A stretch of DNA of 64,000 nucleotides, from positions 496,001-560,000 of the forward strand of contig NZ_QFGA01000003.1 in the NCBI RefSeq assembly GCF_004369205.1, given 5' to 3'. The notes beneath the pieces are model-generated. The model was not told the origin of the DNA. It saw only the letters and a list, made by a program, of their open reading frames with translations, and did not search any database. The position numbers were made by a program, and so were the translations under genes. Positions 9,812-15,262 of this stretch are shown here, one piece after another. Source of the stretch: Pelotomaculum schinkii. Lineage in GTDB: Bacteria; Bacillota; Desulfotomaculia; Desulfotomaculales; Pelotomaculaceae. Positions within the stretch are counted from its first letter, which is position 1, and the number at the start of each line of letters is the position of its first letter.

Positions 9812-12076
9812 CTATAATCTGTTTTCCTCAAGTATTTCCATACGGTGCGAATAAGAGTTTAAGAGTATATATTTGTCTTCGTTCTTCCCATACTCTACCC
9901 AATACGTTATGATACCCATTTTAAAATGACCGATATAGCAATTTTTTTCGGGGTCGTAAAGCTTGCAGCCAGTCGACTCACAATGCTCTATAGCTGCTGC
10001 AACTTCTTCTTCAAGTATCAATGAACTGTTCAGTTTTTTTACCATATGAGGTGATATTACAATTTTCATCGAGAATCCATCTTCTTTTATTTCCTCTGAT
10101 GTTTCGCCAAAGACATGCTCTAAAAGCATGTTTCTGGCAATCAACCTGTTTTTTCTGCGGGTCCCCAGTGATGGCGGAGCAAAACCGCCTCCGTTCAGTC
10201 CGAACACTATGTCCAATATATGCACACACTCTTTGCCCTCCCGTACAAACGTGTCACGGCAGTTTGTGCAATAGGTTATATACGGGTTTTCGCTTGCATT
10301 TATCCTGTTTTGGACTATGCGTTCCTCTAAATTCCGGTTAGCTTTGGCTATATGCCCGCCCCAGCCGCAGCACTGCGCTTTTTCTCCGTGAAACTGCAGT
10401 TCCTCAATATTAGCACCAGACATGTATGCCATACGGCGCACACTTCTTTGCATAGATACATTATTTCTGCTTGCGCAGGGGTCGAAGACACACATGCTTT
10501 TCCTGCCCGGCTCTGTTTTTCCCCCGGGTAATCCTTTTTCGGCCATCACCTCGTAAAGAGAAATACCGTTTGCCTCGTGAAGGAATTTTTGCAGCTGCAG
10601 TTGGCATGTCGGGCAGGAAAATATGATTGCCGGTCGTCCGAAAGAATCCCATTTTTCTTTTATGCCAGCTATGACACTATCGTTCAACTCCCTGTCCGCA
10701 CCCCAATCGGCTGGCGCGCCGCAACAACCAATCATTATTGCCGTATCCGGAAATATTTCGAGCAGATACTCGTAGGATCGTGTCACATATCGGGGGTCGC
10801 TCGCTCCAAGCTGACAACCCGGGAAGAACATATATCGGGCAGCCGTATGTCCTGGAGCAAGCCTGAAAACTGCCGCTGCACTGTTTGAAAACAGCATGTC
10901 CCGAATAAAAAAGTCGTGGAATGCAGGCGGGTAAACTTTGTCCTCGAACTTGAAATGCCTGAAATCAAAAAAGAAAGAACCCATATCTATGCCCTGCGGA
11001 CATACTTTGCCGCACAGCCCGCAAAGATTGCACGAAGACATGGTACGGGTGGAGTGCTGGCGCGTAAGCCCGCTCTTTGAAGACAACGTAGTTATGGCCT
11101 CCGCTACCATCAATTGCGGCGGTTTACTGAAATAGCTGAAAAGCTCGCAGCCTTCCTTGCATTCCGTACAGTTACAGCGCAGGCAGCGCTTTGCTTCAGC
11201 AACGGCCTCATCGCGGTCATATGCGGCACCTTGATGCGGCTTTACTGCAGCCTCGGGTGAAACATTCGACAGATCTTTTTTCAACTTGGTCTCTGTGATC
11301 ATGAACGACTCGGGCATGCCGTCCATCCTGCCTATCTTTACATACTTTTCTATAGAGTGCGCCACTACTGAGGCCTGCGCGATATCCTCGACTGGAGCCG
11401 CGCCAAGCACACCGCCTCCAATAAACACACCAGGGCGTACTGTGCCAAACGATTTTTCGTCGATACCATCCAGAAGGCCAAAATGCTCTCCGCCTTTTCC
11501 AGTAGCTATATATGCGGCATCGAACTCTATATCTTCCAAGCTGTTTATTTCCCTGTTCAATTCAATATTGCAGCGCACATATTGCATCTGCCGTTCAATC
11601 TCGGGCAAAAACACCCCGGGGTCCAGCATGTCCCACAAACGGCCGCCTACTCTGCCGCTTCGCTCGTACAGTGTCACGTCGTAGCACCTTGCGCCCAATC
11701 GCAGAGCACAGGTGAGCCCTGCAAGCCCACCGCCTATGACGGCAATGCGCTTGTTCTTTTTGGGCAGGTTGAACCGCAACGGTTCATCTGAATCGGTAAA
11801 CCGCACGCTGGCCAGTTCCAACATTCTGAGAGATATAGCCTCATCATGCCCTCCACGCACACAACGGGATCTGCACAGCTGCGAACATACCCTGCACACT
11901 ATCGCCGGAAAAACGACCTTATTCCTCAATATTTTATATGCAGCAGTAAAATTGCCCGCCTGAAGCTGTTCGGCAAATGCACGCACGTCAAGGTTCAATG
12001 GACATGCCGCACTGCAAGGAGGCAGTTTTCCATGAAGGCAATCCTTGGCAAAGTTTTCATAGTCAAATTTTGTCAT
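9812..12076 (-). CDS. Flavin/Fe-S oxidoreductase fused to heterodisulfide-reductase-like domain
   Basis: About 754 residues. N-terminal GltD-like Fe-S domain (LPPCSAACPLNLDVRAF), FAD/NAD-binding domain (GGGLAGLTCALRLG near residue 118), a ferredoxin-type Cys cluster (CNLCGLCGKVCPQG near residue 345), then CCG-type motifs (IGCCGAPADWG and AQCCGWGGH) as in HdrB/GlpC proteins, and a short C-terminal domain. Probably moves electrons between the Mo-hydroxylase encoded upstream and a soluble carrier. It follows that gene by about 90 nt in the same operon. GAGGGA before the ATG at 12076 favours it over 12088. Corresponds to the DVU_1558-type protein (recalled). Confidence 0.85.
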   Translation of the reverse strand: MTKFDYENFAKDCLHGKLPPCSAACPLNLDVRAFAEQLQAGNFTAAYKILRNKVVFPAIVCRVCSQLCRSRCVRGGHDEAISLRMLELASVRFTDSDEPLRFNLPKKNKRIAVIGGGLAGLTCALRLGARCYDVTLYERSGRVGGRLWDMLDPGVFLPEIERQMQYVRCNIELNREINSLEDIEFDAAYIATGKGGEHFGLLDGIDEKSFGTVRPGVFIGGGVLGAAPVEDIAQASVVAHSIEKYVKIGRMDGMPESFMITETKLKKDLSNVSPEAAVKPHQGAAYDRDEAVAEAKRCLRCNCTECKEGCELFSYFSKPPQLMVAEAITTLSSKSGLTRQHSTRTMSSCNLCGLCGKVCPQGIDMGSFFFDFRHFKFEDKVYPPAFHDFFIRDMLFSNSAAAVFRLAPGHTAARYMFFPGCQLGASDPRYVTRSYEYLLEIFPDTAIMIGCCGAPADWGADRELNDSVIAGIKEKWDSFGRPAIIFSCPTCQLQLQKFLHEANGISLYEVMAEKGLPGGKTEPGRKSMCVFDPCASRNNVSMQRSVRRMAYMSGANIEELQFHGEKAQCCGWGGHIAKANRNLEERIVQNRINASENPYITYCTNCRDTFVREGKECVHILDIVFGLNGGGFAPPSLGTRRKNRLIARNMLLEHVFGETSEEIKEDGFSMKIVISPHMVKKLNSSLILEEEVAAAIEHCESTGCKLYDPEKNCYIGHFKMGIITYWVEYGKNEDKYILLNSYSHRMEILEENRL

Positions 12077-12169
12077 ATCATCCCTCATAAATATTGCGCG
12101 GACTACACCTGTAACAGGTGTAGCCCGGCAAATTTATTTCTGTGAACGGTCATGCTGGTGTCATTGTGC

Positions 12170-15010
12170 TTAGAAGTTCTCTTCGTCCGGCACAGGATGT
12201 GCGTCAAGATACTCTAACTCATCGTACAGGTCCAACCCAAGGTAATATTTTTCGGGTTTGAGCTCCTTGCCTGTAGCTTTTGCTTCCATGGCTGCCTTGA
12301 CCTTCTCCGGCGTGGCCGGGAGTTCGTAAATGCGCACACCGACAGCATTATTGATGGCATTAATGATAGCTACATGGAAGGAAGACTGGAAGTTCTCCGA
12401 ACAGCCGCCAGAACCGAAAGGCCCCCATTTCCTGACGCTGTCATGCCAAATGAGCTCGATCTCATCCGGCATTTCTTCGCATTCGAGTATTCCGGCACCT
12501 CTAAGAGTAGAGTGCTTCTTGGGATCGCTGAAATCTTCCTTGAGCGCAAAGCCGACACAATGTGACATCCCGCCATATGCCTGGCCCTCAACACCCTGCA
12601 GGTTACCTATCTTGCCTATGTCAGCCACACATGTCGCCTTTAACACCTTCGTCTTGCCGGTGACAGAGTCAATTTCCACTTCTGCCATGTATATGCTGTA
12701 GAGCTTCTCGTGGTAGGCAAATCCCTGACCAGTGTTCGCATCGAGGAACTTGGTGACTCCCTGGGGTGAAGATGCATAACCTTCTACCATTGTTGGTAAG
12801 CCTTCGGCCACCATCTCGTCATAAGTACGGTATGTGCCGTCTTTCTTGCGCATAAGATCCATCAGTTTGTTCGCTGCGTCAATTGTGGCAGCTCCGGCAT
12901 AGTAATGCATGCGGCTGCCGCCTGACAAACCTGTGTCAGGAGAATATTTGGTGTCGTTCGCTTCGAGCCTGATCTTTTCCAAAGGAACATTCAAAGGCCT
13001 GAGAGCTTCATATGTGAGCATCAGGCAACTGCCTTCAGCATGTTGGCCCACGTCCTGCCAGGTGTTGTGGTTGACGAAACTGCCGTCCTTGCATAATTCA
13101 AGGGCCACACTGGCATGGTCGGTAGGATCTCCGAGGATATATGCGCCAATCGATATGCCTACGCCGCGCTTCTTCGCAAGAGTGCTCTCAGCCTTCGCTC
13201 TTTTCTTAGCCTCTTCGTATTTAGGCCGCAGCATATCCATCATTTCATGATAATAATATTCATTATACTCATGGCCAGTCGATGAGGTCTCACCAGGACG
13301 TGCAATATTCTTATAGCGGAAATCAAACGGATCTATGCCCAGCTTCTCAGCCATCATGTCAATGATAGATTCGGAAGCAGTAAACGCTTGTACAAATGAA
13401 AACGCCCTGTATGTTGTACAATAGCTAAAATTCGAGAATGCCGCCATCGACACGCCGCGGATATTCGGGATATAGTAGGGGAAGCCCATGCACACCAGGG
13501 ATTTTAGCAGCAGTATCTGCGTATATTCGACATAAGCGCCTGTCTCATAGCAAAGCTTGTATTCTAAAGCCTTTATCTTGCCGTCTTTGTCGCATGCAAG
13601 GCGCACATTGGAATTTGACGCCGAACGTTTGCCCGTCACTATCTGGTGTTCAGGATAAGTCAGTACGATCGATACCGGCCTGCCCAGCGCCAGAGCACAA
13701 ACCGCTGCATATGCCGGCGTTACAGGTGAAACGGAATATCCGAATGATCCACCTGTTTCATTTTGTATAATCCTGATATTTTCGGCCGGTACACCGATGC
13801 CGGCAGCGATCATGTTTATATTTCCATAAAGGAACTGGCTCTTGTACTGTATTGTCAGCATGCCGTCATCACCTATATATGCCTGCGCACAGTCAGGCTC
13901 CAGCGCCAGGTGAGGTTCTCTCTGCGTATAGAAGCTGCCTTCGACGACATTTTCGGCTTTCTCTACTATTTCCTTTGTATCTGCGCCCTTTTTGAGCGGC
14001 CACTTGAGGTAGATGTTGTTCGCACCCTCATGAATCTGCACAGAATCGGGCATTATCGCTTCAAGCTGATTCAGATACTGCGGCAGTTGTTCGTAATCCA
14101 CTTTGACTGCCTTTGCTGCAGCGCGTGCGTGATCGCGTGTGTCTGCAGCAACTACTGCAACAACATCACCGATCTTAAATATTTTTTCATCGCAGATTAT
14201 AGGGCGTTCAAGGCCGGTGCATTCAGCCCGCGGATGTCCTATCGGAAATGCTATGCGGTTGGTGCCTTTTACGTCCTTAGCCGTGACCACGCCCGCTACT
14301 CCTGTCATCTTGAGAGCTTCAGAATAGTCCACGCTCTTGATCTTGGCATGTGCCACATCAGGGATGACCAATGCAAGATGCAGCGTATCTTCAGGCATTT
14401 GCAGAGACATGTCATCACCATAGTTGGCAAGACCGGTTACCCTGGCTATACCGCTTTCGCGTCTTGGGAAACGCGTACCGTATATTTTTCCGTCGGCCGG
14501 AACCTTATAAGTTATATCATCCATCGTTGCTTCACCGCGCATTACCTTTGCAGCTGCCATCGTTGCATCTACCAGAGGCTTGTAACCTGTGCAGCGGCAG
14601 ATGTTCCTGTTCTTCGTGAACCATGCACGTACTTCTTGCCTTGTTGGGTTGGGGTTCTTGTCCAATAGCGCTTTTGCAGAAACGATGAATCCCGGTGTGC
14701 AGAAACCGCACTGTATTCCGCCATATGTTATCCACGCTTGCTGGAGCGGATCAAGATTGTTAGGTGTACCTATACCCTCAATTGTAGTGATTTTAGAGCG
14801 ATCAGCGATGGTCTTCATTTGCTTGACGCATGATCTGGCAAGTTCGCCATTGAGTATAACTGAACATGTTCCACACTGGCCGGCATCGCAGCCCACCTTG
14901 ACGCCAGTCAGTCCCTGCCGTCTGAGTACTCTTGCAAGAGACTCCTCAGTGTCGCAAACGACCATTCTGTCAGCACCATTGATTTTGAGCCACAGCTTCT
15001 GTAAACCCAT
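12170..15010 (-). CDS. Molybdenum-hydroxylase aldehyde oxidoreductase (xanthine dehydrogenase family, single chain)
   Basis: 946 residues, close to single-chain aldehyde oxidoreductases such as Desulfovibrio Mop. Order: plant-type [2Fe-2S] domain (CDAGQCGTCSVILNG near residue 40), second [2Fe-2S] domain (CGFCTPGF near residue 99 and NRNICRCTGY near residue 132), then the two molybdopterin-binding domains beginning at YGTRFPRRE near residue 175. Lacks the FAD domain of xanthine dehydrogenase, so electrons likely leave to the flavoprotein encoded next. RBS AAGGTGG. Its leader contains an intrinsic terminator at 15030-15072 and, further upstream, a duplicated AOR promoter. Substrate unknown; an aldehyde or hydroxylatable ring is likely. 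Confidence 0.92.
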   Translation of the reverse strand: MGLQKLWLKINGADRMVVCDTEESLARVLRRQGLTGVKVGCDAGQCGTCSVILNGELARSCVKQMKTIADRSKITTIEGIGTPNNLDPLQQAWITYGGIQCGFCTPGFIVSAKALLDKNPNPTRQEVRAWFTKNRNICRCTGYKPLVDATMAAAKVMRGEATMDDITYKVPADGKIYGTRFPRRESGIARVTGLANYGDDMSLQMPEDTLHLALVIPDVAHAKIKSVDYSEALKMTGVAGVVTAKDVKGTNRIAFPIGHPRAECTGLERPIICDEKIFKIGDVVAVVAADTRDHARAAAKAVKVDYEQLPQYLNQLEAIMPDSVQIHEGANNIYLKWPLKKGADTKEIVEKAENVVEGSFYTQREPHLALEPDCAQAYIGDDGMLTIQYKSQFLYGNINMIAAGIGVPAENIRIIQNETGGSFGYSVSPVTPAYAAVCALALGRPVSIVLTYPEHQIVTGKRSASNSNVRLACDKDGKIKALEYKLCYETGAYVEYTQILLLKSLVCMGFPYYIPNIRGVSMAAFSNFSYCTTYRAFSFVQAFTASESIIDMMAEKLGIDPFDFRYKNIARPGETSSTGHEYNEYYYHEMMDMLRPKYEEAKKRAKAESTLAKKRGVGISIGAYILGDPTDHASVALELCKDGSFVNHNTWQDVGQHAEGSCLMLTYEALRPLNVPLEKIRLEANDTKYSPDTGLSGGSRMHYYAGAATIDAANKLMDLMRKKDGTYRTYDEMVAEGLPTMVEGYASSPQGVTKFLDANTGQGFAYHEKLYSIYMAEVEIDSVTGKTKVLKATCVADIGKIGNLQGVEGQAYGGMSHCVGFALKEDFSDPKKHSTLRGAGILECEEMPDEIELIWHDSVRKWGPFGSGGCSENFQSSFHVAIINAINNAVGVRIYELPATPEKVKAAMEAKATGKELKPEKYYLGLDLYDELEYLDAHPVPDEENF

Positions 15011-15029
15011 TGATTAACCACCTTTCGTT

Positions 15030-15072
15030 TTTTAAAAAATAAAAACGGACTAAAACAAGGCCTTAGTCCGTT
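15030..15072 (-). terminator. Intrinsic terminator/attenuator directly before the Mo-hydroxylase gene
   Basis: On the minus strand AACGGACTAA (from 15072) pairs perfectly with TTAGTCCGTT, followed by TTTTTATTTTTT. The RBS and ATG of the 946-residue gene follow within 20 nt. A terminator here, in the path from the upstream promoter, implies control by premature termination. An upstream AGTCCG (about 15227-15233) could pair with the 5' arm as antiterminator. Confidence 0.75.
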
Positions 15073-15262
15073 AATACGCAAAGAAACACAGTTTGCATTA
15101 GTAAACAATTGTATCTATGTAGATACACTGTTAACCCAGCCCTTTCCAAACACGGGAGGCAAAAAAGTTTCCCTTTTCACCCAATGGTTAACTCGGCATT
15201 AACTCTCGTTGACAGCCTTGTAAACTCGGACTTATGATATTAAGTTATACGTTTTATATGTC
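15073..15262 (-). promoter_or_regulatory. Structured leader of the Mo-hydroxylase gene, candidate riboswitch
   Basis: On the minus strand GTTAACC and GGTTAAC pair to enclose about 50 nt of purine-rich, unpaired-looking sequence (GGGTGAAAAGGGAAAC, GCCTCCCGTG, GGAAAGGGCTG), then a short hairpin TGTATCTACATAGATACA, then the terminator at 15030-15072. The layout (aptamer-like fold plus terminator before a molybdopterin enzyme) suggests a Mo- or W-cofactor riboswitch, but I cannot confirm the class by eye. Confidence 0.45.

Follow-up and report, generated by a model that had tools for sequence, protein, structure and literature searches.

The Moco riboswitch (Rfam family RF01055; Regulski et al., 2008, PMC2408646) has a conserved sequence and fold with the helices P1, P2, P4 and P5 and a GAAA tetraloop. 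It precedes genes of molybdenum and tungsten metabolism, and a terminator-based expression platform was reported for some members. A tetraloop receptor is usual though not strictly defining, as a few accepted family members lack it (PMC2408646). In its first description, the Escherichia coli riboswitch acts on the ribosome-binding site, and read-through control has been deduced for it from RNA-seq (PMC12121620). For RNAs without P3, Regulski et al. proposed the tungsten cofactor as ligand (Tuco or Wco variant), based on a correlation in which 17 of 19 organisms were tungsten-using (PMC2408646). An exception to this P3 rule are P3-less RNAs before sulfite-oxidase genes of S. wolfei, which might mean that a molybdenum enzyme is repressed at high levels of the tungsten cofactor (PMC2408646). 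Tandem Wco RNAs before Ni-Fe hydrogenases have already been published (PMC9481103), and tungsten-dependent riboswitches have been reported for transporters of Eubacterium limosum (mentioned in PMC13390469).

We analyzed the leader of a Mo-hydroxylase gene in a 64-kb stretch of the genome of Pelotomaculum schinkii, referred to as the window. The leader has the sequence and fold, the helices, the GAAA tetraloop, the gene context and a terminator of the reported kind in common with the Moco riboswitch and differs from it by the absence of P3, a divergent receptor and an antiterminator for which P1 and P2 are predicted to provide their 5′ strands. Properties in common with the Tuco variant are the missing P3, a genome rich in tungsten-type aldehyde oxidoreductases (AORs) and TupA/TupB-like transport genes, and many copies per genome with tandem pairs, including tandem copies before a Ni-Fe hydrogenase. 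In contrast to that variant, the gene in the window encodes a Mo-hydroxylase of the xanthine dehydrogenase family rather than a tungsten enzyme, and the ligand is a predicted one. E. limosum offers a further likeness, as this anaerobic Firmicute has a tungsten aldehyde oxidoreductase and is reported to use riboswitch control linked to tungsten (mentioned in PMC13390469). The closest published parallel are the P3-less RNAs before the S. wolfei sulfite-oxidase genes, and the case in the window is of the same shape. Since the reports on Wco RNAs before hydrogenases, on E. limosum and on E. coli read-through are in print, the novelty is limited; the leader adds a cofactor riboswitch, with a platform predicted to work by transcription attenuation, before the gene of an aldehyde oxidoreductase of the molybdenum family.

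The RF01055 aptamer of the Mo-AOR leader

The leader extends on the minus strand from the start codon of the Mo-hydroxylase gene (15010) to about 15262. A preliminary description, made from the sequence alone, had taken it for a possible Mo/W-cofactor riboswitch and had proposed an RF01055 search and a covariation analysis of homologous RNAs, both of which bore out this assignment. When the window was screened by cmscan against all 4227 Rfam families, RF01055 (Moco/Tuco riboswitch) matched at 15243-15123 (-) with 62.9 bits and an E-value of 9.6e-13 over model positions 1-135 (gathering score 36 bits), and no other Rfam family was found in the entire 64 kb. With the leader alone as query, the E-value was 6.8e-15 and again no second family appeared. 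A purpose-built covariance model, R1, which includes the window copy, scored this aptamer with 69.2 bits. The aptamer sits directly before the gene for the molybdopterin-dependent aldehyde oxidoreductase (Mo-AOR). The coordinates of all features are listed in Table 1.

Table 1. Features of the Mo-AOR leader and neighboring genes in the window.
Feature	Position	Strand	Score or basis
Moco/Tuco riboswitch aptamer, P3-less	15123..15243	-	RF01055, 62.9 bits
P1, AGUCC (15232-15228) with GGGCU (15142-15138), compensatory C-G to G-C	15138..15232	-	
P2 with internal bulge (tetraloop-receptor position), strands 15225-15215 (5′) and 15197-15187 (3′)	15187..15225	-	Rfam alignment, pair counts
P4 with GAAA tetraloop (loop 15171-15168)	15157..15182	-	
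P5, two pairs CC/GG, then conserved AAAGG running into P1	15146..15156	-	
Predicted antiterminator 1, AGUCCG (15232-15227) with CGGACU (15070-15065)	15065..15232	-	P = 0.96, 3′ end 15060
Predicted antiterminator 2, ACAAGGC (15221-15215, P2 5′ strand) with GCCUUGU (15061-15055)	15055..15221	-	P = 0.96, 3′ end 15052
Intrinsic terminator, stem 15072-15044 and U-rich tail to about 15033	15033..15072	-	
Probable ribosome-binding site AAAGGUGG, 7 nt before ATG	15018..15025	-	inferred from sequence
Mo-AOR, 946 aa	12170..15010	-	NF045668, 1191.8 bits
Pyridine nucleotide-disulfide oxidoreductase/dicluster-binding protein (NF045663), probably next operon gene	9812..12088	-	751.2 bits
Damaged-looking downstream maturation genes	9574-8373 and 7594-6824	-	TrsS, DVU_1553-like
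Tungsten-type AOR	5428-3572	-	downstream of Mo-AOR on same strand

Covariation was determined for 49 aptamers, comprising all 19 of the genome, the window copy among them, and 30 of its relatives, with pairs counted on the structure derived from the Rfam model. The aptamers were trimmed before alignment, as a full-length MAFFT alignment misplaced the 3′ end. Standard pairs made up 90% of the pair cells, and in 23 of the 33 pairs both partners had changed. The score for covariation was 0.505 compared to 0.212 ± 0.010 in shuffles, and it was at most 0.119 when the partners were slid, a control that leans towards the fold because the structure was taken from the family consensus. Double changes occurred in 308 cells versus 110 ± 11, which is not explained by the consensus-derived structure. 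In the window copy, 28 of the 33 pairs were formed and every invariant column was kept. At columns conserved to at least 90%, it departed from the other copies in P1 only, where a C-G pair is replaced by G-C beside a U-G wobble. The P3 positions of the model were deleted in the Rfam alignment. The GAAA tetraloop of P4 was present; the receptor in P2 was divergent (GCUGUC..UAAUGCC versus the usual CCUAAG..UAUGG). The leader fold was more stable than that of shuffled sequences (z -2.66; 2 of 200 shuffles were equally good). At the level of sequence, the leader is confirmed as a genuine Mo/W-cofactor riboswitch of the known family RF01055, and its ligand would, judged from the RNA family, be a pterin-metal cofactor.

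In one respect, the architecture differed from the preliminary description, in which a GTTAACC/GGTTAAC helix closed the conserved domain. The complementarity is real, but the covariance model assigns GTTAACC (15192-15186) to the 3′ strand of P2 and places GGTTAAC (15136-15130) just outside P1, and it is P1 (AGUCC/GGGCU) that closes the domain. The covariance model led us to reject this helix as part of the aptamer; we retained it as a transient competing fold, because in the folding of truncated transcripts its probability was 0.52 with the 3′ end at 15123 and 0.03 by 15100.

Terminator, antiterminators and predicted mechanism

The terminator that had been noted before the start codon, with a perfect 10-bp stem and a T-run, was found at 15072-15044 (-). 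It reads AACGGACTAAGGCCTTGTTTTAGTCCGTT, then TTTTATTTTTT, and its perfect core is AACGGACTAA/TTAGTCCGTT. The T-run extends to about 15033, which leaves some 22 nt to the ATG at 15010. Among the 16 terminator-like sites between 8000 and 26000, a number not above that in shuffles (20.1 ± 4.5), this one had the highest number of pairs. A promoter scan revealed no convincing sigma-70 promoter upstream; the sole local minus-strand site would start within P1.

By sequence and folding, the leader combines the intrinsic terminator with a mutually exclusive antiterminator. AGTCCG, which had been suggested as an antiterminator strand, corresponds to the 5′ strand of P1 plus one base, and its partner CGGACU lies in the 5′ arm of the terminator. 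In antiterminator 2, the partner strand spans the terminator arm and the loop. Folding of 3′-truncated transcripts as a proxy for co-transcriptional folding supported the suggestion: the probability was 0.74 for P1 with the 3′ end at 15100, 0.96 for antiterminator 1 at 15060, 0.96 for antiterminator 2 at 15052, and 0.94 for the terminator at 15044. As the two antiterminators cross, they would act in succession. When the aptamer was stabilized by 14 kcal/mol in the folding model as a stand-in for the ligand, antiterminator 2 dropped from 0.96 to 0.02 and antiterminator 1 was partly suppressed, still reaching 0.88 at 15060 and 0.55 at 15052.

An exact-complement test on both helices pointed in the same direction: a complementary run of at least seven bases plus a second of at least six occurred in 0.53% of the terminator-arm shuffles and in 0.30% of the aptamer-strand shuffles. 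As the test was set up once the folding outcome was known, its result should be taken with some caution. When duplex energy was the sole measure, the 5′-strand antiterminator did not reach significance (p 0.33). Restoring the consensus P1 in the model abolished antiterminator 1 (0.009), indicating that the unusual P1 of the window copy and its terminator arm match each other. An antiterminator formed with the GGAAAGG/P1 3′ strand was rejected for the window leader, in which this strand has no complementary run of five or more bases; the tandem copies of the genome use this type (p 0.002-0.004 for four and 0.038 for one).

At equilibrium, folding favored the finished terminator with or without stabilization of the aptamer, so that the switching decision must be kinetic. 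Since both antiterminators use aptamer strands, cofactor binding should favor the terminator, and the folding model points to an OFF switch with ligand. We consider it probable that a P3-less Moco/Tuco-class riboswitch controls the Mo-AOR operon through transcription attenuation. Without bound ligand, first the 5′ strand of P1 (AGUCCG) and then that of P2 (ACAAGGC) would base-pair with the terminator's 5′ arm and its loop, which would delay formation of the terminator hairpin and allow transcription to go on. With a bound pterin-metal cofactor, the aptamer would keep P1 and P2, the terminator arm would be free, and transcription would halt about 22 nt short of the start codon. Apart from the helix discussed above, the first reading of the leader is thus supported in the main.

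The Mo-AOR operon and the other RF01055 RNAs

That a molybdopterin enzyme is the target agrees with the preliminary description. The product of the controlled gene exceeded the cut-off of NF045668 (1100 bits) and contains the Pfam domains Fer2, Fer2_2, Ald_Xan_dh_C, MoCoBD_1 and MoCoBD_2; by sequence it is a Mo-hydroxylase of the xanthine dehydrogenase family. The gene behind it exceeded the cut-off of NF045663 (530 bits). Next on this strand come a TrsS radical SAM gene, which is split into two frames with an in-frame TAA, a DVU_1555-like gene scoring just below its cut-off, and a DVU_1553-like gene without its C-terminal half, spanning residues 18-253 of a 471-aa paralogue. The damage to the TrsS and DVU_1553-like genes might reflect decay or an assembly error.

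In the 4.44-Mb genome (8 contigs), 19 RF01055 copies were above threshold (47.7-77.7 bits), located on contigs C1, C2 and C3 and including three tandem pairs; P3 was absent in all 19 by inspection. They precede a tungsten-type AOR followed by a sigma-54 regulator, TupA- and TupB-like genes, formate-dehydrogenase-type operons, an FdhE-like gene, genes for MoCF/MoeA-like proteins, an ECF-type transporter, a Ni-Fe hydrogenase, an NAD-type aldehyde dehydrogenase and two large secreted repeat proteins. Four Mo-AOR-type operons are led by such P3-less copies, that of the window and three paralogous ones, and in two of the four the Mo-AOR gene itself lies 2.7-2.9 kb downstream of the RNA. At G000:C1:1751190-1751307 (L016), a 409-aa opposite-strand ORF, by sequence appearance an IS110-type transposase, stands between the RNA and the Mo-hydroxylase operon (to C1:1748331).

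A terminator was located within 92 nt of the aptamer in 15 of the 19 copies; the other four precede two formate-dehydrogenase-type operons, a tungsten-AOR and a second Mo-AOR. For three terminator-less leaders (C2:15986, C1:2263038 and C3:46399), folding predicts that the conserved CCUCC of an unfolded aptamer is paired to the ribosome-binding site (0.81, 0.81 and 0.98, respectively). Such masking would make them ON switches; aptamer folding made the ribosome-binding site more accessible in only two of the three leaders.

Some contexts deserve mention. An intact P3-less RNA with a terminator (G000:C2:715525-715644; L018:3526-3645) precedes the NAD-type aldehyde dehydrogenase gene, which encodes an enzyme without Mo or W. 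Its orthologue in the congener G002 (L081) has mostly kept its sequence, with mutations at conserved aptamer positions, and scored 37.9 bits by R1, below the Rfam threshold. The RNAs at G000:C1:333787-333910 (L019) and G000:C1:1722711-1722827 (L015) have strong terminators. The genes behind them encode repeat proteins of very large size, one a 1490-aa subtilase/Kelch protein and the other a 1355-aa RCC1/Shr-like protein, and such neighbors are unusual for this riboswitch. The RNA at G000:C1:1740112-1740232 (L016:6113-6233, minus strand) precedes an apparent ECF-type transporter operon with a PF09819 permease component and ATPase-like genes.

Relatives contained 30 (G020, with 8% contamination), 26 (G049) and 23 (G016) RF01055 copies; these numbers and the 19 copies found here exceed the 2008 figure for S. 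wolfei, at least 15 (PMC2408646). A search for an orthologous leader of the window Mo-AOR gave none; the top match of a congener, 57% identical, corresponds to a paralogue. Paralogues and the Mo-AORs of other genomes therefore served to judge conservation. With an alignment as query, 80 Mo-AOR loci were obtained from other genomes (none with a single-protein query), several of them short upstream. The aptamers were sought by covariance model, as a strict text pattern caught just two loci. At four of the 80 loci (L149, L162, L172 and L175), an RNA with 44.7-86.3 bits lies upstream of the Mo-AOR gene, directly or across one small gene, in each case followed by a terminator-like hairpin; at a fifth, L211, two copies lie about 2 kb upstream. 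By inspection, all RNAs at these five loci lack P3. The pairing of P3-less RNA and Mo-AOR is thus recurrent but not common. Among longer RNAs taken from other genomes, those with P3 precede genes that by sequence appearance are moaA-, moeA- and mod-like, in agreement with the published P3 rule.

With regard to the nature of the leader, a chance resemblance, i.e., an ordinary terminator behind an unstructured leader, would fit the just moderately unusual folding energy (z -2.66) and the lack of enrichment of terminator-like sites as a class around the leader. Its probability is negligible: the RF01055 match reached 9.6e-13 over 64 kb on the correct strand, the RNA immediately precedes a molybdopterin enzyme gene and has 18 further copies in the genome, and the Rfam score and the covariation have already refuted this reading. 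Alternatively, the operon could be decaying and its leader be the remnant of a riboswitch that used to function, as the broken TrsS gene, the truncated DVU_1553-like gene and the degraded congener orthologue of the aldehyde dehydrogenase aptamer would suggest. The intact 946-aa Mo-AOR frame, the retention of all invariant aptamer positions, P1 changes that are compensatory or wobble, and a terminator that fits the altered P1 make this improbable, and assembly errors could account for the gene breaks.

Direction of control and identity of the cofactor

OFF control is counter-intuitive for an enzyme that uses the cofactor, which weighs against the attenuation mechanism preferred here. In a genetic ON switch, the cofactor would promote read-through and the enzyme would be made once its cofactor is present, physiologically the more intuitive direction. 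We regard such a switch as unlikely, since both antiterminators consume 5′ strands of the aptamer helices P1 and P2, so that the ligand should oppose them, and the leader revealed no helix that ligand binding would release and that could then block the terminator.

For the OFF switch, the question is which metal the sensed cofactor carries. The genome contains 14 matches to tungsten-type AORs, TupA- and TupB-like genes that are both under the NCBIfam equivalog cut-offs, and two ModA homologues. The 14 AORs and the ModA homologues suggest that both metals are probably used. As the aptamer is P3-less, we consider the tungsten cofactor, with low confidence, a somewhat likelier ligand than the molybdenum cofactor, and a P3-less, tungsten-type sensor on a Mo-hydroxylase gene is the one unusual point of the leader. 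The same riboswitch may nevertheless sense the molybdenum cofactor, if absence of P3 does not equal tungsten specificity, and feedback on free cofactor would then limit formation of apo-enzyme. This is a serious possibility to which we give somewhat less than even chances. It would suit the Mo-hydroxylase family of the controlled gene and the two ModA homologues, and the P3 specificity is based on correlation; moreover, an E. coli RNA without P3 lost regulation rather than changing its specificity (PMC2408646). Against it stand the lack of P3 in all 19 copies, including those before tungsten-AOR and TupA/TupB-like genes, and the association of P3-less RNAs with tungsten-using organisms in 17 of 19 cases (Regulski et al., PMC2408646).

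If the tungsten cofactor is the ligand, the leader could be part of a metal-isozyme switch, a tentative idea that we rate as rather doubtful: with tungsten cofactor present, the Mo-AOR would be silenced and the tungsten AORs used, and with tungsten gone, the Mo-AOR would be released. In a fuller version, the OFF copies of the terminator type may control transporters and tungsten-independent substitutes, and the terminator-less copies before tungsten-AOR and formate dehydrogenase genes may be ON switches in which CCUCC masks the ribosome-binding site until the cofactor binds. The support that the leader of the NAD-dependent aldehyde dehydrogenase gene lends to this idea is weakened by the degraded aptamer in the congener G002. 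Certain B12 riboswitches repress B12-independent isozymes. They differ from the window leader in RNA family and ligand and would, if the tungsten-cofactor reading is true, be a comparable case of a cofactor-sensing OFF switch on a substitute enzyme.

The leader adds cases to the question whether P3-less riboswitches sense the tungsten cofactor. P3-less RNAs occur repeatedly upstream of Mo-AOR operons, both in the genome studied here and in others. This leaves two explanations, a systematic exception to the P3 rule or a choice between metal-specific isozymes that these bacteria make by means of the tungsten cofactor.
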